DNA of 64,000 nucleotides, taken from positions 3,472,001-3,536,000 of the forward strand of contig NZ_CP064939.1 of NCBI RefSeq assembly GCF_015679185.1, given 5' to 3'. Every line of letters starts with the position of its first letter. Position 1 is the first letter of the stretch. The notes beneath the pieces were generated by a model. The model did no database searches. It saw only the letters and a list, made by a program, of their open reading frames with translations, and was not told the DNA's origin. The translations under genes were made by a program, and so were the position numbers. Shown piece by piece: positions 46,520-59,079 of this stretch. This DNA is from Pedobacter endophyticus. GTDB lineage: Bacteria > Bacteroidota > Bacteroidia > Sphingobacteriales > Sphingobacteriaceae.

Positions 46520-47326
46520 TTAATCATTAGTTTCCGACAAAATATGTTCAGGAATCAACTTTGATTTTAAATAAAGAACATTTGCTATCGCTGGCCCGGC
46601 CGAATAGCTAAGGATTGGGGTGAAACCATGTTCGTTGAGATAGCTGTCAAAATCATATCTTGTTGGAATATCCTCATATCGCATTTCCGTATTTGCTTCA
46701 AGATCAATTAGTAAAATTGACTTTAGAAACCTCTCTCCGCCTTTTAGAGCCTTTAATTCTGATCCTTGAATATTCATTCTCAGGTAGCTAAAATCTTTAT
46801 TCGTCCAGCTATTAGGTAACTCGTCAATAAGTTGATCCAAAGTTTTACAGGGTACAGACAGCTCGCCATAAGCTAAAGAATCCAAAATGTCAGAAAATTG
46901 ACCTTTAACTGGTTTTGTCAGAGAAGAAAGTGAACTTATTTCGGTACGGTATATTTTGGCTAAGCCCGATTCATCAGAGATGGCGCAATTTACTCCATGG
47001 GCTTTCATTCGAATTTCTTCTCCAAGAAAGCTCGATAAACTAATAAAAGTACTATTGTAATCGTCAATTCTCGTTTGCATTATTTTGAATTCTTCCGGCA
47101 AGGGTTCAACCATAACTACGTTCCGAAATCCAAGAGCAGCGTACATCGGTAATTCCTCTCCTATATGTCCTCCCAAATGTATAACCCCAGATCTGGAAAT
47201 ATTAAACTTCTCCAGCAATATTTGATATCCATATAGCAACGGGTCTAAATTGGCTTTTGCATTTCTTTTAGTAGCTAATTGCATCAGGTTTGCTGGGATA
47301 ATTTTATAAGAGTTTTCTGGTTTCAT
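46520..47326 (-). CDS. FkbM-family methyltransferase
   Basis: A 268-residue Rossmann methyltransferase. SAM motif I is VIHLGGHIGEELP (48-60), with VVMVEPLPEEF (70-80) carrying the acidic ribose-binding residue. IYRTEISSLSSL and the C-terminal LRMNIQGSELKALKGGERFL are the FkbM family signature. FkbM enzymes O-methylate sugars, acids or natural-product hydroxyls. As last gene of the minus-strand operon, 32 bases after the PaiB-like gene, it could cap a hydroxyl or carboxyl of the proposed product. Confidence 0.85.
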   Translation of the reverse strand: MKPENSYKIIPANLMQLATKRNAKANLDPLLYGYQILLEKFNISRSGVIHLGGHIGEELPMYAALGFRNVVMVEPLPEEFKIMQTRIDDYNSTFISLSSFLGEEIRMKAHGVNCAISDESGLAKIYRTEISSLSSLTKPVKGQFSDILDSLAYGELSVPCKTLDQLIDELPNSWTNKDFSYLRMNIQGSELKALKGGERFLKSILLIDLEANTEMRYEDIPTRYDFDSYLNEHGFTPILSYSAGPAIANVLYLKSKLIPEHILSETND

Positions 47327-47358
47327 AATTATTTAAATTTACAGATGTACTTAAGGAA

Positions 47359-47979
47359 CTAACTTTTCTTCTTCAAATTTGAAGTCATGTATTCCGCAGT
47401 GATTCTATCCTGACTGTTTTCACTTTTGCTCAGCGTGTTGATGATCCGTTTCTGTTCATCAATCGTCTTGTTCTGACTCATTTTTTGACTGGCCTGCAGC
47501 TCTGTTACCGTTATAGTAAACGGTACAATCCCATTTAACATCTTGTCTTTAAAGCTATCAGATAACGAATCCCATTGCGGTCTATAACCGGGCTCGTAAG
47601 TTAAAATCATGTCTTCCAGCGACCGAATTGCATCCGAATGATCTTGCACCACAATACAGTTTCCATAAGCATGCACAGCATAGTAATTCCATGTCGGAAC
47701 ACTTTCCGTCTTATCATAATGTTTCGGGGAAATATAAGCATGTGGCTCACTGAAAATAACTAGTACAGTTTGTCCCTCAATATTTTTCGCTTGTTGATTA
47801 GCCTTTGCAAAATGTGCATGCAATGTAACGACCTCATTTTCGTAAGTAATTGTAAATGGCAAATGTGTAGCCTGTGGAATCTGATCAATCGTTGAAACAA
47901 TTGTAGCAAAACTAAATCTTTTCATAAAAGATACGAGTTCCTCTTTATCGGATACCTGGTTTAATTTAGAGGTATACAT
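47359..47979 (-). CDS. PaiB-like FMN-binding protein
   Basis: A 206-residue split-barrel protein of the PaiB/FMN-binding family. PQATHLPFTI near 35-44 and HAHFAKANQQAKNI near 54-67 are conserved blocks, and WNYYAVHAYGNCIVVQD near 101-117 is the signature of PaiB. Family members are often called negative transcriptional regulators, but the fold is that of a flavin-binding oxidoreductase. In this operon a redox or tailoring role is as likely as regulation. It lies 12 bases after the beta-hydroxylase gene. Confidence 0.8.
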   Translation of the reverse strand: MYTSKLNQVSDKEELVSFMKRFSFATIVSTIDQIPQATHLPFTITYENEVVTLHAHFAKANQQAKNIEGQTVLVIFSEPHAYISPKHYDKTESVPTWNYYAVHAYGNCIVVQDHSDAIRSLEDMILTYEPGYRPQWDSLSDSFKDKMLNGIVPFTITVTELQASQKMSQNKTIDEQKRIINTLSKSENSQDRITAEYMTSNLKKKS

Positions 47980-47991
47980 TAGTTTAATAAT

Positions 47992-48849
47992 TTAGATAAG
48001 TTCAACATCAATACAAGTACCAGCAATATTTAGCGCCAAAGATTTAACAGTATTTTCACGAGAAAAAACGTAATCTACATACGCTTCCATAGGGAGCCCT
48101 ACCAGTGAAATCTTGTCTTCAGTAAGCGCCAGTGCTTTTAATAAAGGCTGGTCATTCACCAGCACACATAATTCTGCATCTATTAACCTGACACTTCCCT
48201 TTAAACTTTCGTTCAAGTCCAAAAAGCCCATCCCTGGTAAAGAAAAGCCTTTGGGAAGCAAAAAATTACAGTTGAAACGAGATAGTGTCTTTGTATCTAT
48301 TTCCACATGGTCATCTAATTTAGCAGCGGCAATCAGCGCCAAAGGAATAGAATCTAGAGGAAACAATTTCAGTAGATCCTTGGTTACTGTAACATCAATC
48401 ACCAGATGCACCCTGGTTTGCTGGCTCTTGTTTACACCATGATGAGGTTTAGAAAAATCACCAAACCATAATTCACCAGGTTGCCAGTTACAACGTAAAT
48501 CATCAAGAAAAAACTCAACATTCTGGTTAGTAAAAACCGGAATATGCAACCGAACTATCCGGTCTGATAGAAACGAATCGCTATGTTCTTTGATGATACC
48601 ATCTGGTTCAAGCATCATAAAACGAACAAGTCTTAGCCTGAGCTTCATTGCTTTTAATTCGTCCAATAACTCATCCGTTTGGGGTAAGCTTTCACGTTCT
48701 TCATTACCTAATGAGTATATTGGAATCGTATTCCAATTAAAATTTCCCTCGCCTGGATATCCCGCTGGAGCACTTTCAATGTTCTTAATACCATTGTAAA
48801 CGCGAGTGAGCATCTCGACCGAAAAAGTTTTATTTAATCTTAAATTCAT
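47992..48849 (-). CDS. Aspartyl/asparaginyl beta-hydroxylase family protein (Fe/2-oxoglutarate)
   Basis: A 285-residue protein whose first 160 residues form the Asp/Asn beta-hydroxylase jelly roll. H89 and D91 in KEHSDS form the HxD metal pair, and HHGVNKSQQTRVHLVIDV supplies the distal metal His (136 or 137) and the 2-oxoglutarate-binding Arg146. Related domains hydroxylate free or carrier-bound aspartate in siderophore pathways, making an iron-binding beta-hydroxyaspartate. Residues 165-285 are unrecognised. Its presence beside an exporter and a TonB receptor is one reason to suspect a metallophore. Confidence 0.85.
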   Translation of the reverse strand: MNLRLNKTFSVEMLTRVYNGIKNIESAPAGYPGEGNFNWNTIPIYSLGNEERESLPQTDELLDELKAMKLRLRLVRFMMLEPDGIIKEHSDSFLSDRIVRLHIPVFTNQNVEFFLDDLRCNWQPGELWFGDFSKPHHGVNKSQQTRVHLVIDVTVTKDLLKLFPLDSIPLALIAAAKLDDHVEIDTKTLSRFNCNFLLPKGFSLPGMGFLDLNESLKGSVRLIDAELCVLVNDQPLLKALALTEDKISLVGLPMEAYVDYVFSRENTVKSLALNIAGTCIDVELI

Positions 48850-48865
48850 AATAATAAGTTATATG

Positions 48866-50287
48866 CTATGTTTGTATAATTAAATTATCATTTATAAATG
48901 CCTCAACTACTTGTTCAAAATTTGGATTGACAGATAAACCGGCCTTCAATGCTACTTGGTGAGAAATTCTTTTATAAGCCCAAATCGTTTTCTGAATTGA
49001 GGCTTTCATTTCATTAATGCTGCTGTGCGGATAAATACCACTTGCAATCATCGCGGCGATATCAATTTGACTTGTAATTGGTTCGCCAGCATAAGTCTTG
49101 AGGTCATTTAGCCAATCGATCATTTCGCTTAGCCTTTTTTTGATATTGTTATCCAATATAAAAATGGCATAATAAAAGTCATTTCTAATCAATTTTACCA
49201 TCATTTTATAACAGTACTGCCAAAACTGATTATAGTTGTTATAGAACATGTCATTATACGCTTCACTTTTATAAAATTCTAAGTTAGCATTGAGCAGAGC
49301 AGGTAAGTTATGCTGTTTAGAGCAATTGATTTTACATTCAGAACATTGCGGTTTTTTAATACTTTTACTTATCAGGGTTTCCAAATCACTATTGATTTTA
49401 AAGCCTTTCGACAAAGCGATTGGATGGGATAATTGTTGGTAAACCAAAATTGACTGATCAATAGCATTAGTCATACGGGGGAAATCCTGATGAGGAAATA
49501 TACTATATAACTGTTGAATAATCGATTCATCACACCAATCATATATCTTCGCTCCTTTATAAAACACGTCCAGATCTTTATTATTTGGATCCAGCAATGT
49601 ATGCCAGTATACCATTTGAATCAGCGATTTTTTGATTTCATGATCATGGACATTTAATGCCTGAAAATAGTGTCCTCTTTCTAACTCAAGATTCATCTTG
49701 CAACAGGATTGCCAGAACTGGTTATAATTCCGCTCAAAAGTATTTTCATTAATCAGATTATTGCGTTCTTGATAAAGCTCATGTTTATATGCATCAAAAA
49801 TTCTTTCAATTAGACTTTTGATATTCACTTGATCGTAGAGTATTTGATATCCTCTTTTTAGATAATAATGGAAAGTATATAGTTTTTTATCCACGCTTTC
49901 CAATAACTTTTTTGGAATAACAGTTGATAAACCGACTTTCTTCAGCCATAAGAAATACTTTGCCGTCCGAAATTCACTAATATCTACCGTGATAATATCT
50001 AGACTAAACTCATTTTCGAGTACAATTCTGTTAAACAGAATTTGATCCATCAGCTCTTCCACAATTACCCTGGAAAGTATATTTCCGAAACTTTCTAAAA
50101 GCCATTGGTTTTGGTTTTTATCAAGATAACGAGCTCTATCAGTAGTGAAAATGAAAATATCCAAATCGGAGTTCTCATCAACTTTTTTTCTATTAGTCGA
50201 TCCAAAAGATACAATTGCCTTTATATCAGCATTATTCTCGGCCAGATCTATTGTTGCGGTTATGGCTTCGGTTAATCTGCTTTTCAT
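48866..50287 (-). CDS. AadK-like nucleotidyltransferase with duplicated C-terminal domain
   Basis: A 473-residue protein. Residues 20-105 form a nucleotidyltransferase fold: SFGSTNRKKVDENSDLDIFIF gives Gly29-Ser30 and the metal Asp41/Asp43, with a third acid near 97-102. This resembles aminoglycoside 6-adenylyltransferase. Residues 188-305 and 351-462 are two copies of the same helical domain (NYNQFWQSCCKM against NYNQFWQYCYKM), joined by a linker with CSECKINC (Cys315, 318, 322), a possible metal site. Typical AadK proteins are about 290 residues with one such domain. It may adenylate a pathway intermediate or give self-resistance. It starts 1 base after the receptor stop. Confidence 0.78.
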   Translation of the reverse strand: MKSRLTEAITATIDLAENNADIKAIVSFGSTNRKKVDENSDLDIFIFTTDRARYLDKNQNQWLLESFGNILSRVIVEELMDQILFNRIVLENEFSLDIITVDISEFRTAKYFLWLKKVGLSTVIPKKLLESVDKKLYTFHYYLKRGYQILYDQVNIKSLIERIFDAYKHELYQERNNLINENTFERNYNQFWQSCCKMNLELERGHYFQALNVHDHEIKKSLIQMVYWHTLLDPNNKDLDVFYKGAKIYDWCDESIIQQLYSIFPHQDFPRMTNAIDQSILVYQQLSHPIALSKGFKINSDLETLISKSIKKPQCSECKINCSKQHNLPALLNANLEFYKSEAYNDMFYNNYNQFWQYCYKMMVKLIRNDFYYAIFILDNNIKKRLSEMIDWLNDLKTYAGEPITSQIDIAAMIASGIYPHSSINEMKASIQKTIWAYKRISHQVALKAGLSVNPNFEQVVEAFINDNLIIQT

Positions 50288-50288
50288 G

Positions 50289-52712
50289 TTATTTAATTAC
50301 ACGTTCTTCTATCTCGTCAATAGCCTTGTTAATTTTTCGTTGCACTTCCAGTTTGATATTTCCGAAAGTATGGGTGTAAGTTAGCCTGACTATTCTTGAC
50401 TCATACCTATAATCGGTTAAAGCAGAAAAATTCGGATTCCCTTCATTTATTGATGTTACATGATAACGGTCTGAAAGAATATTGCTGATACTAAGTTGCA
50501 AACGATCATTTGAAGCCAACCATTTTTTATCAATTGACACATCAATTTTATTGGAAGGACTTGTCCTTGAAGCACCTGTGAGTCTGGCAGACTGGTAGGA
50601 ACCAAATACCTGAATATAGTATTGTTTTGACAGCATGAAATTCTGAGTGCTTTTAATTCTATAGTATGAATCTGATAAGCGTCCTCTGCTTAAAAGCTGA
50701 GTAGATTGTAATACACCCTGTAAGGAATTATCGATCTGCCACCAATCAGACAGCCTCACAGGTATATACAACAATGCTGAATATATTTTATTATTTTTAA
50801 GGTTGATTGGCATAAAAACCTGCCTGTTATCCTCAGAGAGAACAGGTTGAAATCTAAATATCGGATCAATTGTATTTATGAATTCAGTAGTGATCGAGTA
50901 TCTTTTAAAATTGTACGTCAACGTATATACATCACTTAATGAAGGCTTCAGGGATATATTTCCATTATAAAGGGTTGTAGGATCTAAAAACAAAATGAAC
51001 GGAGCAAGATCGTTATAAGTCGGCCTGCTGATTCTTTTGCCATACGATAACAACAAAGTGCTGTTAGCATTCAATGTCCTTGACAAAAACAAGGTCGGAA
51101 ATACCCTTCCCAAATTTCGGTTCACAACTTGTTTTTGTTCAATAATAGTTAAATGAGTATCCGAATTTTCATAACGCAATCCAACGTTCATAGTTGTGTT
51201 TTTATTAATATTCCATTTCGCTGAACCATAAAAGGCATGAATAATTTCATTCAAATGAGAGCGTCCACTCATCGCTGGGTCAGGCACGTATTCCTGACCG
51301 AGTAATCGTGCCACACTAACGAGATTATCCAATGAGGTAAGGGTAACTTTATATCCCGCTTCCAGTTTCATATTTTTATTGACCTGAACACCATAGTCGG
51401 TCCTTGCTGCCCAAATATTTACAGGCGTTCTCTTCTCAGAAGTAAAAACGTCCTTTAGAATCTCCTTATTTGCAGCATCAGCATAGGTGTTCTCATAGAA
51501 ATTGGGGTTTTTATTATAAAAATACAAATAGTCCAGATCGACATCCAGATTTGATTTTTTATCGATTTTATACGCTAAATTTACATTACCAGTAAACAAA
51601 GTTTTCTTGCTGTTTTCTGAATTAAAAATGCCTAAATTCACGATGGAATCAGGTCGATAATAGATATTCCCTCTACTCTTTACATGCTGATCCCATGTAT
51701 TCAGAAGCCCATAAATGCTACTTCCTAAAGTTGTTTTATCATTTAAACTGAAATCCAGACCAAGTCTTCCAGAATAGTTAGCACTTGTAGGAAATCTGCT
51801 TGAAACGATTGCGCTTGAATAATTACTTGCATTCGTGGTGATTGTTTTATAATTCTCAAAACGCCTATAGGAACGGTCCCGATTATAAGATAAGTCGCCA
51901 AAAAAATTGAGTGCTTTTTTTCTTGTATTCCAGTTTACTGCCAACCGCTGCTTGTCAAAATCACCAAAGCCTAATGCCGTAGTATATGCACCATTAGTAC
52001 CATCGGTAGTCCTTTTGTTCAGCAGAATATTGATCAGCCCACCTGCATTTCCAGCTTCATATTTTGCAGGTGGATTGGTAATCAACTCAATCTGCTTAAT
52101 GTTTCCAGCCTCCATTGTATTCAGCATCTGTATCAGTGAGCTTAAAGGGATATTGACAATTTTTCCTTCCAGCATAATTCCAACCTCTTCTTTTCCATTC
52201 AACGAAAGGGAAGAAGTTTGACGATCAACCTTTACCCCAGGTAGCTTTTCTAAAACCTCAAGGACACTTCCGGAAACTAATGTATTTTGATTACCAATAT
52301 TGACGGCTACGCGATCAATTTGTCGTTCATAAAGCGGCCTGTTTGCTTTTATACTTACCTCTTTCAAGTTGACTTCACTAGGTTCCAGGTGAATAGCTGG
52401 AATGATTGTGTTTAATTCTCTAATTGAAACAGGAACCCTGCTATTCTTGTAAGACCATGAAATTAAAGAAACAAAATACTCCCCCATATTATTAACCTGT
52501 AATTTATATTTACCATCCAGCGTAGTCATTGAAGAGGCGACTGTGGAGGAATCTGAGAGCCTGACAACGGAGATTTTTGTATAGGCTACCGGCAGATTTT
52601 TATTATCCAACACTTCACCAGTTATGCTATATTGACCCCGTATATTGCCAAACCAGCAAAGTAGGATAAATGAAATGATCAGAAAAGGTTTTGATAGAAT
52701 TGGGAGCAACAT
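50289..52712 (-). CDS. TonB-dependent outer-membrane receptor
   Basis: An 807-residue protein with a signal peptide (about 1-26) and a carboxypeptidase-like regulatory domain (28-108, ITGEVLDNKNLPVAYTKISV). A plug domain spans about 125-235 (LEKLPGVKVDRQTSSLSLNG, NPPAKYEAGNAGGLINI), followed by a beta-barrel of the OMP_b-brl_3 type. A short charged tail follows the last strand. This is not a SusC-type protein, lacks a SusD neighbour, and lies in the middle of a biosynthetic-type operon, which suits recovery of the operon's own product. The ligand is unknown. Confidence 0.88.
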   Translation of the reverse strand: MLLPILSKPFLIISFILLCWFGNIRGQYSITGEVLDNKNLPVAYTKISVVRLSDSSTVASSMTTLDGKYKLQVNNMGEYFVSLISWSYKNSRVPVSIRELNTIIPAIHLEPSEVNLKEVSIKANRPLYERQIDRVAVNIGNQNTLVSGSVLEVLEKLPGVKVDRQTSSLSLNGKEEVGIMLEGKIVNIPLSSLIQMLNTMEAGNIKQIELITNPPAKYEAGNAGGLINILLNKRTTDGTNGAYTTALGFGDFDKQRLAVNWNTRKKALNFFGDLSYNRDRSYRRFENYKTITTNASNYSSAIVSSRFPTSANYSGRLGLDFSLNDKTTLGSSIYGLLNTWDQHVKSRGNIYYRPDSIVNLGIFNSENSKKTLFTGNVNLAYKIDKKSNLDVDLDYLYFYNKNPNFYENTYADAANKEILKDVFTSEKRTPVNIWAARTDYGVQVNKNMKLEAGYKVTLTSLDNLVSVARLLGQEYVPDPAMSGRSHLNEIIHAFYGSAKWNINKNTTMNVGLRYENSDTHLTIIEQKQVVNRNLGRVFPTLFLSRTLNANSTLLLSYGKRISRPTYNDLAPFILFLDPTTLYNGNISLKPSLSDVYTLTYNFKRYSITTEFINTIDPIFRFQPVLSEDNRQVFMPINLKNNKIYSALLYIPVRLSDWWQIDNSLQGVLQSTQLLSRGRLSDSYYRIKSTQNFMLSKQYYIQVFGSYQSARLTGASRTSPSNKIDVSIDKKWLASNDRLQLSISNILSDRYHVTSINEGNPNFSALTDYRYESRIVRLTYTHTFGNIKLEVQRKINKAIDEIEERVIK

Positions 52713-52742
52713 AAAACTAAAATTAAAGCGTTTGCATTGTAT

Positions 52743-53801
52743 TTATTTTGTGGGTCTAAGAAACTTATTTAAAAGATGTGCAACAGGCTTTTTAAAGATT
52801 GCGGTTAGTACTGGATTTTTAAGAAGCACTGATATATATACATCTTCATGCCCGGCCTGAAACTTATCCTTCATCGATGCAGAGGAAGATCCCATATCAA
52901 TATGGAGACATCTTTGGTCAATGGCAAAACGAATCGATTCAAGCATAATCTGATACCAAAGATTGTGCGTTTTAGTAAACCTGTAATCGAATCCTGTGAA
53001 CAAACATTTCACTTCCCGACTATTGAAGAACATCAGACCGAATGCAGCAATCTTATTTTGTAGGTTATAAGTAATAACCTTAGTTTTGATTTTACTGTCA
53101 CACAGTGCAGAAAATACAGATCGGTTAACCGCTGCTGTTCTGTTTTCTTTAGCTTTCGCATTAGTTTTCTGATATAGAGGATAAATCAGATCGACTAATT
53201 CTGGAGTTAGTTCATAGAGCCCAACACTCACCGCAGAATCTTGCTTACATTTCATTACACTTCTAAAATAATTACGTTTTTTTGAGGGTAATGCATTGAA
53301 ATAATCTTCAAATGAGGCAAAAGAAGCTATATTCAGATAGCTCTTCACTAATGCATGATGATTTAAAAACCCCATGTCTTGGTTTTTGGCCATCAATGGT
53401 TGATCTGCTGTACCATAAAATTCACGTAAAATAACTACGTAAAATTTATACTGCTTCTTCAAGGTCTGCAGAATTTGCTTTACAAAGGTGCTATAAGAAA
53501 TATGATTTTCACTGTGCCAGAACGCTTTTCCATTTGTTTTAGGAGCTCCAAACATAGCTATGGCGATTGGAAACCCGGCAATTCTGATCTTCAAAATTGA
53601 TATTAAACAAATAAAGATAATCTCCCCTTTTACAGATCCAGTATAGAAAAATGTATTAATATCCTGCTTATTATACAAGTGAAGATAGTCGAGTGTTAAT
53701 GTAAAATTATTCGTTGCCACATGGAGATTCCAACTCTCTGTCTTAGGCTTATCCGCACAAAAAGCAGACAAGCTGTTATTCACAATATTCAACTCTGTCA
53801 T
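52743..53801 (-). CDS. FemAB/GNAT-like acyltransferase
   Basis: A 352-residue protein of the GNAT-fold group that includes FemAB and BioF2-like acyltransferases. SYLNIASFASFEDYFNALPSKKRNYFR near 165-190 and CLHIDMGSSSASMKDKFQAG near 302-321 are the family's two best blocks. FemAB-type enzymes use aminoacyl-tRNA to add residues to peptides and, in some natural products, to make amide bonds without NRPS. Its start overlaps the stop of the ABC transporter gene by 4 bases. Whether it uses tRNA or acyl-CoA cannot be told. Confidence 0.65.
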   Translation of the reverse strand: MTELNIVNNSLSAFCADKPKTESWNLHVATNNFTLTLDYLHLYNKQDINTFFYTGSVKGEIIFICLISILKIRIAGFPIAIAMFGAPKTNGKAFWHSENHISYSTFVKQILQTLKKQYKFYVVILREFYGTADQPLMAKNQDMGFLNHHALVKSYLNIASFASFEDYFNALPSKKRNYFRSVMKCKQDSAVSVGLYELTPELVDLIYPLYQKTNAKAKENRTAAVNRSVFSALCDSKIKTKVITYNLQNKIAAFGLMFFNSREVKCLFTGFDYRFTKTHNLWYQIMLESIRFAIDQRCLHIDMGSSSASMKDKFQAGHEDVYISVLLKNPVLTAIFKKPVAHLLNKFLRPTK

Positions 53802-55438
53802 AAAGCTATAAAATTGGGATTTTCATGAGTAACACGTATTAGCTTTCCTTCCTGCATTTTATATATGTAGTCAGTAAAGTAATAATATTTATCATCGTGG
53901 GTGATTGCGATTATGGTGAACCCTTTTCGTTTAAGCAAAGGAATGATCTCTTCATAAAATTTTTTCCTGAAATAAGGGTCCTGATCGGCTGCCCATTCAT
54001 CCAAAACTACAATAGGTTTATTCTCTAATAACACACAAACTAAAGCTAACCGTTTCCTTTGTCCCATTGATAAACCTCTGGTGGTAAATACATTATCTTG
54101 CCATCCCACCTTATCATTTAATTCAAAGATAGTCAGATACTCCTGTACCTGGATTGGGTCAACCTCAGGATTAAATACTTGATCAAAGAGATAATAATCA
54201 CTAAAAACGGCTCCGAACAACATTTTAAAAACCCCAATATTATCGAATCCAATCAACACATCATCGACATATACCTGACCAGTACCTGGCTTCAGTAGGC
54301 CTAATAAAAGCAACATAAAAGTGGTTTTTCCGCTTCCATTGCCTCCATAAATAAAATACACATTCCCCCGCCCGATCTCAAGGTCAATCGGTCCAATGCC
54401 AAAACCATTTTCCTGGCAAACGCTGGTTGGATAAGTGTACTTTAGATCCTGAACTTTGATCCTGGAAAAATTATCAAAAACCTCCTTTTTGGTAATTGGA
54501 TGATCATTGAATATGGTGCTAAATGTATCGCGTAAATCTACAACACGCTTGTATGCAATATTTGCCTGGTATAGCCCTGGTAAGAGTGCCATAGTCGTTT
54601 CAATTGCACTACGCAGAAACAGGAGTATAAAAACAAAATTAATTGATGTGGCCATTGGCAGACCGAACCTATTATTGAAAAACATCAAAACTGATAGTAT
54701 GAGCGTAAAGAAAAGAATCTGTCCCGTCAGCTGATTAAGAGAAATTCCGGTAAAAGCTTTAATGTTCAAGCCAATAGACCTTTCCGCAATTTGTTCTAAT
54801 TTAACTTGCCCCAGGATAGTCTTTTTATGCCGATCCAAAGATATTTCCTTGAACCCATTTATTAATGAATCCAATAGACTTACAAACTGCTCTTCTTCAT
54901 TTCTTGCGGCTTTTAGAAAAAACTGATTTCTCTTGAATGAAATACGATAAATAAAAGCTCCTGATACGATGACTATTAAGGTAAGAATGAACAACAATAT
55001 ACTGAGGTAGGCAAGATAGGCCATGCAAAGAATCATGGTCAAAAGGGAAGTAAGAAAATAGATGCAATGTTCGGCAGATTGTGTCAAAATCGAAACGTCA
55101 CTAATTAAGCATGCTGTAATTTTATGGGAATGCCTTTTAAAGTCGTTGAAGTTGGCATCAGACATTATTCTAACGACCTCTACTCTAAGCTTCCAAAACA
55201 AATGTTGTGAAAGCTTAATGGTTGAAAATGAGAAATAGATTCGCGTTAGGGCATATAAACCGATAAGTACAATCAAAAAAAGACAGTACTTTAATTCAAA
55301 GACTAAAGCTTTATCATTAACTTGTTTGTTGATCAACAGGTTAACCAAACTGATAAAGCCCAAAGTCAAGCTACTTGAGATTGTGCCCAACAAAAAAACT
55401 TTGATGAAATTTAGCTTTGATATAATAGGGTCTCTCAT
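53798..55438 (-). CDS. ABC exporter of the cyclic-peptide (SyrD/PvdE) type, fused TMD-NBD
   Basis: A 546-residue half-transporter. Five or six transmembrane helices cover 14-300. The nucleotide-binding domain has Walker A GGNGSGKT (365-372), signature LSMGQRKR (456-463) and Walker B VVLDEWAADQDPYFR (477-491). EWAADQDP followed by RKKFY is characteristic of the SyrD/PvdE cyclic peptide and siderophore exporters rather than of lipid flippases. It would move a product or precursor to the periplasm. Its position among the tailoring genes supports a secreted small molecule. Confidence 0.88.
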   Translation of the reverse strand: MRDPIISKLNFIKVFLLGTISSSLTLGFISLVNLLINKQVNDKALVFELKYCLFLIVLIGLYALTRIYFSFSTIKLSQHLFWKLRVEVVRIMSDANFNDFKRHSHKITACLISDVSILTQSAEHCIYFLTSLLTMILCMAYLAYLSILLFILTLIVIVSGAFIYRISFKRNQFFLKAARNEEEQFVSLLDSLINGFKEISLDRHKKTILGQVKLEQIAERSIGLNIKAFTGISLNQLTGQILFFTLILSVLMFFNNRFGLPMATSINFVFILLFLRSAIETTMALLPGLYQANIAYKRVVDLRDTFSTIFNDHPITKKEVFDNFSRIKVQDLKYTYPTSVCQENGFGIGPIDLEIGRGNVYFIYGGNGSGKTTFMLLLLGLLKPGTGQVYVDDVLIGFDNIGVFKMLFGAVFSDYYLFDQVFNPEVDPIQVQEYLTIFELNDKVGWQDNVFTTRGLSMGQRKRLALVCVLLENKPIVVLDEWAADQDPYFRKKFYEEIIPLLKRKGFTIIAITHDDKYYYFTDYIYKMQEGKLIRVTHENPNFIAL

Positions 55439-55480
55439 ATTTTACTTGATGTTGGTAGGCCGTTATTAATTGATGCTTAC

Positions 55481-56602
55481 CTATTTATTCAAATACATTA
55501 TCGTTTTATTACAGATGGAAATAAAAAATCTCCAAATTGATTTTTTAATGAGGCTGAGATGATCAAAATAGATCAAGTCATATTCTGCTCTTGCAATGCC
55601 TCCTCTATTTTTTTTAAACTCATCACCTCCAGAGCTATAGTTTAAATTTTTATGTTGTGTCTTTGCATCAAGAACCCTGATGGCAAAATTTAAGGTATAC
55701 AAATGAAAGTAATCAGCAGTATTCTGTTTGCACGCTCCCAGCGAACTGATGATGCTCCCATTATCTAAAAATGTTACAGTGAAGGCCACAACTTCCTGAT
55801 CTGAATTTTTAAATGCCTGTAACTTAAAAAACGGTAGTGCTCTAATCATTTCAAACCACTGTTGATTATAAGGCAAGCTATATTTAGAGTGTTTGCCGAA
55901 ATAAAGTTGATTATATAAATGCCTTATGGTAACCATATCAATACTTTTTAATTGATCTCCCTGTGTTAGCAGATAAGTAGTCTTTGCATTAGCCTTAATA
56001 GCTTTTTTAATATCGGACTTTTTTAAAAATTCTTCATCCATATCTACAGCATACACTATACGGTTCGTTAAGCAATTCGAATTAGGCAAAGACATGCCCT
56101 CAAAATGAAGATAATTGTTTACCCCTTTGAAAATTATCGCATATGATTTATAGGCACCTTGAAAGAATTCGCGGATATTCAATAACTCTTCATTGTTCAG
56201 ATAAACGGATGCCCCGGTAGGTATTATCCAGCAGTTAACATATACTGCTTTATTTATCCTTACCAGATTAAGCAGCGCATTCAGTATTATCCCCAGACAT
56301 TGTAAAGAGCCATATAGCAAACGGCTTTTAACCTTTTCCTTAACAGAATCTATCCCATGTTTAATATAATGAACACTCAGAGCTGATAAATAAGAGGATT
56401 TATCCTTTCCCTGGTTTATAACGATTGGAATAATTTTATCATTGACTACTAACAACTTGAATTCAGAATTAAATCCATCAATATAATATTGAGGCCCTTT
56501 TTCAAGCAGATTTATTAAATAGCCATCAGGCCCATCTTCTGAACGATAAACATGGGATAATGATTCATATTCAGTTACAGAAGAGCACAAATTAATGACC
56601 AT
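55481..56602 (-). CDS. GNAT/FemAB-like protein (Acetyltransf_6-like)
   Basis: A 373-residue protein. Its C-terminal half has the signature of CelD/FemAB-like GNAT proteins: FTVTFLDNGSIISSLGACKQ near 280-299 and NLNYSSGGDEFKKNRGG near 325-341, corresponding to the [DN]xxGG..fKxrfG motif. The N-terminal half (1-150) is less clear. It may acylate or aminoacylate the pathway intermediate. It begins 24 bases after the DUF3419 C-part and is followed 42 bases on by the exporter gene. Confidence 0.6.
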   Translation of the reverse strand: MVINLCSSVTEYESLSHVYRSEDGPDGYLINLLEKGPQYYIDGFNSEFKLLVVNDKIIPIVINQGKDKSSYLSALSVHYIKHGIDSVKEKVKSRLLYGSLQCLGIILNALLNLVRINKAVYVNCWIIPTGASVYLNNEELLNIREFFQGAYKSYAIIFKGVNNYLHFEGMSLPNSNCLTNRIVYAVDMDEEFLKKSDIKKAIKANAKTTYLLTQGDQLKSIDMVTIRHLYNQLYFGKHSKYSLPYNQQWFEMIRALPFFKLQAFKNSDQEVVAFTVTFLDNGSIISSLGACKQNTADYFHLYTLNFAIRVLDAKTQHKNLNYSSGGDEFKKNRGGIARAEYDLIYFDHLSLIKKSIWRFFISICNKTIMYLNK

Positions 56603-56626
56603 AAAATGTATGATTTATCATCGTGC

Positions 56627-57049
56627 TTATTTTAGTTTATAGATGTCAATGTTCCATAACTGAGTAGACTCTTGTAAAAACAGAGGCCGATATAAATTGC
56701 CAATTTCTTCAAAGCCATCAATTTGTGGCCGCGTTATTCTAAGATTACCTCTGACAACAACTTTGCCTGCGTTGGTCAAGTACGGTTTCAATAATTGCAG
56801 ATAGCTTGTCTCTAATTTACCGCCCATAAAAGATGGGACATCGGAGAGAGAAATAAAATCTATACTCTTCGGCGCTGTTTCCTGGATTACTTTTAATATA
56901 TCACCCTTAATATATTTGATCTCACAGTTCTCCAACCCTATTTTAACCTTATTGAACACTTCTGCATCTGCTTCAATCGGATTTGCACGGGTATTGATTA
57001 ATTTTCCAAAGAAACAAAGTTGTGCAAAAAAGCTTTTATTTACATCCAT
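56627..57049 (-). CDS. DUF3419 protein, C-terminal part (out of frame with N-part)
   Basis: A 140-residue frame starting MDVNKSFFAQLCFFGKL and containing SLSDVPSFMGGKLETSYLQLL and NAGKVVVRGNLRI, the distal half of the DUF3419/BtaA-like methyltransferase fold. It is in the +1 frame relative to the N-part and overlaps it by 14 bases. Read upstream without a start, the same frame gives NQIFHQMDVNKSFF, which would follow the N-part naturally. Removing one T from the run of five at 57069-57073 (complement) would join them. It is either one frameshifted gene or two coupled polypeptides. Confidence 0.75.
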   Translation of the reverse strand: MDVNKSFFAQLCFFGKLINTRANPIEADAEVFNKVKIGLENCEIKYIKGDILKVIQETAPKSIDFISLSDVPSFMGGKLETSYLQLLKPYLTNAGKVVVRGNLRITRPQIDGFEEIGNLYRPLFLQESTQLWNIDIYKLK

Positions 57050-57713
57050 CTGGTGGAATATCTGATTGAAAAATTCTTTTAAAATTTTTAAAGTGAGATC
57101 CCGGGATATTTTTCTTTGGAAAATCCCCTTTATAAAGCAGGCTATTTAATACAGAAGTATTTCCAAGTAAGCGCAAAACCAAATCCCATCTATGCCTTGG
57201 AAATCGATCAGTTAAATACGCTATCTGTTCTGGTAGGCTATTAGTTTCAAACAGCATTTGCCCCTTTCTACCCGTAATCAAACGATTCACCTTAGATAAT
57301 TTAATCAGAGTCTGTTCAAACTGACCCGTGTAAATAATCTCTGACCATTTAGCATTTACAAACACCTTTTCAAGATAAATCCGGGCCGGCTCAGAAAGGG
57401 GAAGCTGATCAAAGATTTTCCGTCGTTCGTCTGGAAGCAGAAATACAGGTGGGTATCCCAAAAAGGCTAGATACTGCTCAAAGTCCAAATATTTTATCGC
57501 CTCATACCGAAGTTCTGTCAGAAACAATTGTTCGTCAAGAATATCTACACAAGTTAATTTTTTGGGGCTGCGTGCAAGTAGAGGAAGCATTCTTCCTCCG
57601 CTGCCTGCTATACCCATAACATGGTTTACGTCTTCCTCTAGTATATTATATTCAACTCTAGAATCTTCGTCACCCAAACTGTAGTTTAAGTTCTTAAAGT
57701 ACTTTGGAGACAT
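57036..57713 (-). CDS. DUF3419 (BtaA-like 3-amino-3-carboxypropyl transferase), N-terminal part
   Basis: A 225-residue frame. NYSLGDEDSRVEYNIL near 10-25 and VMGIAGSGGRMLPLL (32-46, SAM-binding loop), then LTCVDILDEQLFLTELRYEAIK (53-74), match DUF3419, the family of BtaA. BtaA transfers the 3-amino-3-carboxypropyl group of SAM to diacylglycerol. The frame ends FQSDIPPDGCK in a different frame from its C-terminal half. It starts 6 bases after the diiron-enzyme gene stop. In this operon it could provide a homoserine-like building block or alkylate an acyl acceptor. Confidence 0.8.
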   Translation of the reverse strand: MSPKYFKNLNYSLGDEDSRVEYNILEEDVNHVMGIAGSGGRMLPLLARSPKKLTCVDILDEQLFLTELRYEAIKYLDFEQYLAFLGYPPVFLLPDERRKIFDQLPLSEPARIYLEKVFVNAKWSEIIYTGQFEQTLIKLSKVNRLITGRKGQMLFETNSLPEQIAYLTDRFPRHRWDLVLRLLGNTSVLNSLLYKGDFPKKNIPGSHFKNFKRIFQSDIPPDGCK

Positions 57714-57719
57714 AAATGG

Positions 57720-58460
57720 CTATTGGTTGATTAAGTGACTATATCTTGTTGAACTGTCAGACTGAAGTTTTAAATATTCTTCCACAATGTCATCCAGCAT
57801 CTCAGATTGAAGTTTCAAACTGGTTATCAATACGTCCTGTACTGATGACCAATCATCTTCAGTTTTGCAATACTTCTGAATCATATTTTCAATCTCTGCC
57901 GCATGATCTTCATCAATTGCAGCATGAGATACCAGAAAGGTCGTGTGCTTATTATTTAGTTCCAGCTTTTCAATAACAGATTGCATCAATGTTTGAATAT
58001 ATTGATAGGAGTCTTCTGCCCAAAAGCTATATCCCAATCTTCTAAGGGGGTTTCCAACTTTGGAGATTCTATATAAATAACCAATGAATGTTTCTGTAGA
58101 GGATAGTGGAAGTGGCATATTTGTTTCATCTTGATCTTGGGTTACACCTAGGTTTGAAAGGTCATGGAACGCCATCATTTCATGACCTGCTTCCTCTTCT
58201 GCGTGCTCATAGCAAAATTTCATATAATTGGAGGGCATTGATTCGAATCTTGTAGCTACCAATGCTTGATGCTTTGGATTATGCTGAACATAATGATATG
58301 TTTCAATTAAGTATATAGCATAAAATCGCCGATCATATTCTCCATTCAGAATAAAATTACACCACTTAGAGTTCTTGATAATTTTATTCCATTCTCTATC
58401 CCGCAGTTCAGACAAAGCAGTAAATTCTTTCGACCTTAATTCTGTTAATGATTTTTCCAT
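57720..58460 (-). CDS. Heme-oxygenase-like diiron enzyme (HDO superfamily)
   Basis: A 246-residue, all-helical protein of the iron-containing redox/TenA-like group. The six residues expected for a diiron HDO site are all present with family spacing: E53 and H60 (ETYHYVQH), E149 (FWAEDSYQ), H179, D183 and H186 (HAAIDEDH). HAEEEAGHE (86-94) is the second core helix. Related HDOs make N-nitroso, alkene, isonitrile-type or cleaved amino-acid products. It lies 7 bases after the LuxI-like gene and 6 before the DUF3419 gene, suggesting the three act on one substrate. Confidence 0.85.
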   Translation of the reverse strand: MEKSLTELRSKEFTALSELRDREWNKIIKNSKWCNFILNGEYDRRFYAIYLIETYHYVQHNPKHQALVATRFESMPSNYMKFCYEHAEEEAGHEMMAFHDLSNLGVTQDQDETNMPLPLSSTETFIGYLYRISKVGNPLRRLGYSFWAEDSYQYIQTLMQSVIEKLELNNKHTTFLVSHAAIDEDHAAEIENMIQKYCKTEDDWSSVQDVLITSLKLQSEMLDDIVEEYLKLQSDSSTRYSHLINQ

Positions 58461-58467
58461 AATTTAT

Positions 58468-59079
58468 TTATTTTAAAGTACTTGTTTTTAATACTTTCTT
58501 TTTTATTAATTTATTAAAGCTTGATATCTCACCGGTAACCAAATAATATTTATGATCTGCTCTACCCTTCAATAAAAAGCCCTCATCTATCACTGAACTT
58601 GCACCTATATTCTTATAGAGCCTTACTAAGCCTAACTTACAGACGGCGAAATAGACTGTATAAGGAGTGTTCTGAAGAACCCAATCTGAAAAATGATAGA
58701 ACATAAAAGCATGAAGATTTTGATTCCTATATCGATCTTCAATATAAACTCTATTAAGTTGCACGGCCTTATCTTTGTCAAGACTTAAGTTAATATCGTC
58801 TGGCAGATTCGATGAGATTTCCCATGCCTCATCATGATATGGCGTAATTCTGCAACTTGCTACAACTCGATTATCAACTGTAACATAAAATAGTATAGAA
58901 TAATCATCGAATTTATCCTTAGCAGGAAACTCTTTGGTTAAATCAAGAATATATGGAAAGTCTTTTTGACATATGTTCAACCTTGAATTATAAATAGCTA
59001 AATATTCTGATTGCGATTGGGCTCTCTTAAAAACAAAAGACGTTGTTTCGTTTTTCTTTAAATCTAGAAATATGGACAT
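58468..59079 (-). CDS. LuxI/FeeM-like acyltransferase (GNAT fold)
   Basis: A 203-residue GNAT-fold protein. DDYSILFYVTVDNRVVASCRITP (about 58-80) followed by VQLNRVYIEDRYRNQNLHAFM (106-126) resembles the N-acyl-homoserine-lactone and N-acyl-amino-acid synthase group, where a word like ExxR ends this strand; here Gln107 replaces the Glu and Arg110 is kept. Such enzymes join an acyl-ACP to SAM or to an amino acid. It is the first gene of the operon, 196 bases from the divergent XRE gene, with an inverted repeat between. An ordinary GNAT is the alternative. Confidence 0.65.
   Translation of the reverse strand: MSIFLDLKKNETTSFVFKRAQSQSEYLAIYNSRLNICQKDFPYILDLTKEFPAKDKFDDYSILFYVTVDNRVVASCRITPYHDEAWEISSNLPDDINLSLDKDKAVQLNRVYIEDRYRNQNLHAFMFYHFSDWVLQNTPYTVYFAVCKLGLVRLYKNIGASSVIDEGFLLKGRADHKYYLVTGEISSFNKLIKKKVLKTSTLK

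Follow-up and report, generated by a model that had tools for sequence, protein, structure and literature searches.

The window, i.e., the whole 64,000-nucleotide stretch of Pedobacter endophyticus DNA analyzed here, carries a gene at 57720–58460 that raises a twofold question: does its product belong with the oxygen-using diiron enzymes or with the metal-free hydrolases of the same fold, and what might it help to make? About a dozen heme-oxygenase-like diiron oxidases/oxygenases (HDOs) have been functionally validated among more than 10,000 (PMC13108848), and for the subfamily addressed here a structure, 3DDE, has been available since 2008 without its function being explained.

Family and predicted fold

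The ORF lies on the minus strand, starts with an ATG and codes for 246 amino acids with no internal stops. Its product matches the Pfam family Haem_oxygenas_2 (PF14518) at 2.6e-15 with 57.1 bits (cut-off 28.9) and, more weakly, TENA_THI-4 (PF03070; 29.9 bits as compared to a cut-off of 22); an NCBIfam search with the protein returned no match. The sole strong match in a PDB sequence search is 3DDE (E 1.6e-61), i.e., Sden_3740 from Shewanella denitrificans, a structural-genomics entry titled only as heme-oxygenase-like/TENA. It shares about 42–45% identity and all six metal ligands discussed below with the window's protein and belongs to the same subfamily.

The AlphaFold2 model, with 20 homologues as the input alignment, reaches a mean pLDDT of 92.9 and a pTM of 0.90 and displays the heme-oxygenase-like seven-helix fold of the HDO superfamily. 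In VIA-align comparisons its best structural match is 3DDE (Z 31.5, rmsd 1.7), followed by CADD (Z 21.8, rmsd 2.4), with HrmI (Z 20.2), UndA (19.5), TenA (19.5, TenA structures spanning 18–19.5) and heme oxygenases (19.2) further down. HrmI, UndA, AetD and BesC are among the structural matches, while SznF, BesC and AetD are recovered as weak profile matches; these five share the superfamily fold at about 11–14% identity and have known substrates of their own. Thus, the fold alone does not separate an HDO from TenA, and the ligand residues matter. Taking the PF14518 match, the 3DDE relationship, the high-confidence model and the six aligned ligands together, we find the initial annotation of an HDO-type diiron candidate well founded: the protein is very probably a diiron enzyme that uses O2 and comes from an established, rapidly expanding superfamily, in which it is a member of a genuine, functionally uncharacterized HDO subfamily. 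A phage origin was also considered and rejected, as the protein has no match in phages and viral models give distant fold matches only.

The predicted metal ligands

The initial annotation had named E53, H60, E149, H179, D183 and H186 as a complete six-ligand set with the E-x6-H spacing of CADD. All six residues are present at those positions and with that spacing, and their conservation exceeds chance: across 20 homologues H60, E149, H179, D183 and H186 never vary, and E53 is found in 19. The set is indeed complete and includes the last four of these residues; the first pair was misassigned and is replaced by E90 and H93. The distance to E149 is 96 residues from E53 and 59 from E90. In CADD, with E81 as the α1 glutamate and E142 as that of α2, the equivalent distance is 61 residues. 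In the mangotoxin acetylenase MboA, whose crystallographic iron ligands are E86/H89/E143/H172/D176/H181, it is 57 residues, from E86 to E143 (PMC13185094). A profile search aligns E86/H89/D90/E143 of MboA with E90/H93/E94/E149, and a wider profile with MboA added aligns E81/H88 of CADD with E90/H93, a marginal match at E 0.095. E53 itself sits in an upstream helix. Opposite E53/H60 are Glu49/Met56 in MboA, where Glu49 is without a report as a ligand, and Tyr47/Phe54 in CADD, and the homologue on a Pseudomonas syringae plasmid (30% identity) has Q53 and Y60 while keeping E90, H93, E149, H179, D183 and H186. E53/H60 were hence rejected as the α1 ligands; their match to the E-x6-H of CADD is coincidental, and the actual form is E-x2-H-(D/E), as in MboA.

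An alignment that includes the P. syringae homologue and MboA and extends down to 18–30% identity (A6) has N61, E90, H93, M96, D100, G105, T122, L129, E149, H179, D183 and H186 as its invariant columns. The ligand-type residues among these are the six corrected ligands and otherwise N61 and D100 only. By alignment, the protein is predicted to keep the 3H/3C set E90, H93, E149, H179, D183 and H186. E94, an Asp in one homologue, may be a seventh ligand matching the exchangeable Asp90 of MboA, in whose crystal E86, H89 and D90 bind iron (PMC13185094). Were there an extra carboxylate, such as the SznF-type 3H/4C HDOs draw from an auxiliary helix, E94 would be a better candidate for it than E53. 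The helix from E53 to N61 is more likely substrate-contacting than metal-binding. Asn57 and Asp61, the reported substrate contacts of MboA (PMC13185094), land on an Asn and an Asp opposite N61 and Q65, which supports an offset of 25 for the numbering of the MboA PDB chain. For all these shared features, MboA is only 18% identical to the window's protein and has H-x3-D-x4-H on α3 as against the x2 spacing here. The correction keeps mutagenesis off two wrong residues, E53 and H60. A copy in Pseudomonas iridis (L019:7977-8726) has Q93 in place of H93 and a 5-residue insertion before α3, and may be inactive.

These residues also bear on two readings that would place the protein elsewhere on the same fold. 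A TenA-type thiaminase or another metal-free hydrolase would agree with the PF03070 match over its cut-off and with the Z-scores of the TenA structures. On the other hand, the complete 3H/3C set is kept, the TenA sequence matches (0.005–0.07) are confined to the N-terminal half, and 3DDE, MboA and one p-aminobenzoate (pABA) synthase all outscore TenA, so that such a hydrolase, already disfavored when the gene was initially annotated, is very improbable. The self-sacrificing pABA synthases CADD and NePabS share the fold and the ligand set; CADD is the closest fold of known function, and pABA synthases rank next after MboA in the sequence matches. However, the sacrificial Tyr27 and Lys152 of CADD are replaced by Cys34 and Leu158 (position 34 varies in the family), CADD has E-x6-H on α1, and folate context is absent around the gene. 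We therefore rejected a CADD-like pABA synthase, which is scarcely credible here.

The operon and its relatives

Twelve ORFs on the minus strand, of which the HDO gene comes second, follow one another between 59079 and 46520 with never more than 42 bp between neighbors (Table 1), a spacing from which we infer one transcript. Their GC content is 35.4% as compared to 42.2% for the remainder of the window, and the HDO gene is rare in related genomes, being present in 1 of 301 genomes of the family and 1 of 395 of the phylum, with the window itself in both counts. The low GC and the rarity suggest that the operon (46520–59079) was horizontally acquired. It holds two iron-enzyme candidates, the HDO and the Asp_Arg_Hydrox protein.

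Table 1. Features of the HDO gene and of the operon around it (window coordinates; AF2, AlphaFold2).
Feature	Position	Strand	Basis
HDO candidate (heme-oxygenase-like diiron oxidase/oxygenase), 246 aa	57720..58460	-	PF14518, 3DDE, AF2 model
Predicted α1 ligands E90 and H93, candidate seventh ligand E94 (codons E90 to E94)	58179..58193	-	alignment to MboA E86/H89/D90 and CADD E81/H88
Predicted α2 ligand E149 (codon)	58014..58016	-	aligned with MboA E143; invariant
Predicted α3 ligands H179-x3-D183-x2-H186	57903..57926	-	aligned with CADD H174/D178/H181 and MboA H172/D176/H181; invariant
E53..N61 helix, more likely substrate-pocket helix	58278..58304	-	N61 aligns with MboA N57; Q53/Y60 in P. syringae homologue
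GNAT1, LuxI/FeeM-like acyltransferase, first gene of the operon	58468..59079	-	weak PF21926/PF13444; AF2 model
DUF3419 (BtaA-like AdoMet enzyme), N-terminal part	57036..57713	-	PF11899 1.4e-19, profile 4-179
DUF3419, C-terminal part, other frame	56627..57049	-	PF11899 3.5e-05, 23.6 bits (below curated cut-off 28.2), profile 235-334; alignment to single-ORF relatives
GNAT2, 373 aa, distant GNAT-type protein	55481..56602	-	no Pfam match; plasmid homologues
ABC exporter, cyclic-peptide type	53798..55438	-	TIGR01194 326.6 bits, cut-off 286.2
FemAB/arginyltransferase-like protein	52743..53801	-	PF04339 2e-06; weak ATE_C
OMP_b-brl_3 outer-membrane receptor-like barrel	50289..52712	-	PF14905 1.8e-72
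Nucleotidyltransferase-like protein	48866..50287	-	PF04439 5.8e-24
Asp/Asn β-hydroxylase-like protein (Asp_Arg_Hydrox)	47992..48849	-	PF05118 2e-18
FMN-binding protein (PaiB type, FMN_bind_2), candidate electron donor	47359..47979	-	PF04299 2.8e-46; homologues upstream of GNAT in L009, L024
FkbM-type methyltransferase, last gene of the operon	46520..47326	-	PF05050 9.1e-14

The AlphaFold2 model of GNAT1 is nearest to RpaI (Z 18.9), BjaI (18.2), LasI (18.0) and FeeM (16.1), i.e., it has a predicted fold like that of the acyl-homoserine-lactone (AHL) and N-acyl-amino-acid synthases. While it has this fold (Z 16–19) and the R-x-T-P and E/Q-x-x-R motifs in common with FeeM and the LuxI-type AHL synthases, it shows no PF00765 match and is weakly related to them in sequence (weak FeeM/Acetyltransf_5 matches). 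The DUF3419 gene is split in the window into two ORFs that are read in different frames and overlap by 14 bp near 57036–57049, whereas the compared relatives have a single ORF. Because an A/T-rich tract contains or adjoins the break, the frameshift could be a sequencing error or a real mutation; with the gene frameshifted, this strain might not have a complete pathway. GNAT2 has homologues on Paenibacillus and Paraburkholderia plasmids, where they carry a GNAT annotation, and unnamed ones on plasmids of Rhizobium and Shinella. None of the GNAT1, DUF3419, GNAT2 and FemAB proteins had a significant match when searched by sequence against the PDB. The MboA cluster differs in having ATP-grasp ligases where the GNAT and DUF3419 genes are found here; a family search of the operon's 12 ORFs recovered no ATP-grasp protein, which sets it apart from the mbo-type clusters.

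Two conserved peptide patterns, searched for in 84,980 species genomes, recovered 22 loci, to which those of Deefgea and P. syringae were added from plasmid records. Leaving aside the window's own copy, 23 loci have a near-complete HDO, and in 20 of them a GNAT ORF is adjacent to the HDO or close by; the HDO–GNAT loci span Bacteroidota, Bdellovibrionota, and Beta- and Gammaproteobacteria. The full GNAT–HDO–DUF3419 set is also found in Pseudomonas, Trinickia, Deefgea and Aestuariibacter, with DUF3419 coming after the HDO there as in the window, and the GNAT–HDO pair in Bacteriovoracia and Dyadobacter. Thus, the tight linkage to DUF3419 and acyltransferase genes that had been noted for the window alone recurs in at least five genera, and the steadier partner of the HDO is the GNAT rather than DUF3419. 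The GNAT partner is nevertheless not universal, since the ORF immediately upstream of the HDO in P. syringae is without a family match. In a tree of the HDOs the window's protein groups with that of Dyadobacter (support 96/99) and 3DDE with that of Aestuariibacter (100/100).

Beyond these partners the loci diverge. In the Pseudomonas loci the gene set is flanked by yrdC/sua5 on one side and hemF/aroE on the other, and its next genes encode an α-oxoamine synthase and a PaaK-like ligase. The Bacteriovoracia loci are without DUF3419 and variously carry a hexapeptide acyltransferase, a ferritin-like protein, a fatty-acid desaturase and FkbM methyltransferases, the FkbM proteins adjoining or being fused to the HDO in loci of this type. 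In yet another locus (L023), KAS III and GH3 adjoin the HDO. With neighbors varying by lineage in this way, a single common product is unlikely. A literature search found no description of this gene combination.

Several of the loci have further features of their own. A small AdoMet decarboxylase (SpeD) lies inside the GNAT–HDO–DUF3419 clusters of Deefgea and Trinickia (L002:10805-11194 and L007:6707-7096). The FkbM methyltransferase–HDO fusions (L020:7011-8645 and L021:1192-2826) adjoin a fatty-acid desaturase and a GNAT. On the plasmid of P. syringae pv. actinidiae, which is conjugative and present in many strains, the distant HDO (30%) occurs with genes for a PaaK-like ligase, an FMN reductase and anthranilate synthase (L003, 4430-12174). 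The locus of Dyadobacter beijingensis (L004, 2790-12372) has GNAT–HDO without DUF3419 amid chorismate-using enzymes, together with a KAS III-like protein, a phosphopantetheinyl transferase and a beta-lactamase-type hydrolase.

Proposed chemistry and alternative readings

Characterized HDOs act mostly on fatty or amino acids (PMC13108848), and MboA has a dedicated redox partner (PMC13185094). In the Aestuariibacter and Algicola loci (L009 and L024), FMN_bind_2 also lies just upstream of the GNAT, and in P. syringae an NADPH-dependent FMN reductase (FMN_red) follows the HDO; these occurrences make it plausible that a flavin electron donor feeds the enzyme.

As the best explanation of the whole, to which we give a probability of roughly 0.7, we propose that a diiron HDO, perhaps fed by a flavoprotein, oxidizes an amino-acid unit, to which the GNAT adds an acyl group. 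The six predicted ligands would bind two irons, with E94 as an exchangeable seventh ligand in the manner of Asp90 in MboA. The reduced diiron center would then react with O2 to oxidize an amino-acid-type substrate gripped by the E53-x2-H56-x3-H60-N61 helix, and the FMN-binding protein of the operon would return electrons to the HDO. The adjacent LuxI/FeeM-like GNAT might join an acyl group to either the substrate or the product. In the subset with DUF3419, the amino-acid unit would probably bear a 3-amino-3-carboxypropyl group from AdoMet; the aminobutyryl-type amino-acid substrate initially suggested for the HDO is compatible with DUF3419 as a BtaA-like 3-amino-3-carboxypropyl transferase. 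A small acylated amino-acid or peptide-like metabolite would then be completed by other tailoring enzymes and leave the cell through the ABC exporter. The operon, of which we found no published description, thus probably makes a small acylated amino-acid product. Computation supports the fold, the aligned ligands, the recurring gene pairs and the gene layout, whereas the two irons, the O2 activation, the reaction, the order of steps, the electron donor and the product class are inferred.

The same likeness of the GNAT to the AHL synthases and FeeM would fit an N-acyl amino-acid lipid or signal, with the GNAT making the acyl amino acid and the HDO oxidizing its acyl chain or amino-acid part by desaturation, decarboxylation or C–C cleavage, as UndA and BesC do. 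The Z-score of UndA, the KAS III and GH3 genes beside the HDO in L023, and the desaturase, ferritin-like protein and hexapeptide acyltransferase next to GNAT–HDO in Bacteriovoracia are consistent with this; yet we noticed neither a carrier protein nor a dedicated fatty-acid gene in the window's operon, and peptide-like tailoring genes are there instead, leaving a lipid or signal a tangible but less than even chance. Hydroxamate siderophores use N-hydroxylase/acyltransferase pairs, which the constant HDO–GNAT pair resembles. The HDO might accordingly N-oxygenate an amino-acid side chain to a hydroxylamine for the GNAT to turn into a hydroxamate, yielding a metallophore that the ABC exporter would send out and the receptor-like barrel would recover, with the Asp hydroxylase providing a second iron-binding group. 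The exporter, the receptor-like barrel and Asp_Arg_Hydrox are all in one operon, and HrmI, which like SznF is an HDO N-oxygenase (PMC13108848), ranks directly behind CADD among the distinct structural matches. However, a common fold does not give the reaction, the exporter/receptor/hydroxylase set is seen in the window only and is absent from the other loci, and the GNAT is nearest to the AHL and N-acyl-amino-acid synthases rather than to hydroxamate acyltransferases. We hence regard a metallophore as unlikely.

What is useful here, irrespective of the product, is that the ligands have been corrected and that the GNAT/DUF3419 context is conserved; together with the candidate flavin donor, these results give the subfamily a testable setting. 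Returning to the oxidation and acylation of an amino-acid unit that we favor, a bolder and doubtful extension is that GNAT–HDO constitutes a new biosynthetic module, in which an HDO, and not a flavin N-hydroxylase, would oxidize the amino-acid unit, including units that DUF3419 makes from AdoMet, and the capping would fall to a LuxI-like acyltransferase. If this is true, both the chemistry and the class of metabolite would be new, and they would be spread over Bacteroidota, Pseudomonadota and Bdellovibrionota. Separately, plasmids from several phyla (L026, L028 and L029) carry a recurring KAS III/NAD(P) oxidoreductase/MBL-fold/F390-synthetase-like cluster, with DUF3419 (Rhizobium) or an ATP-grasp protein (Paenibacillus and Paraburkholderia) beside a distant relative of GNAT2.
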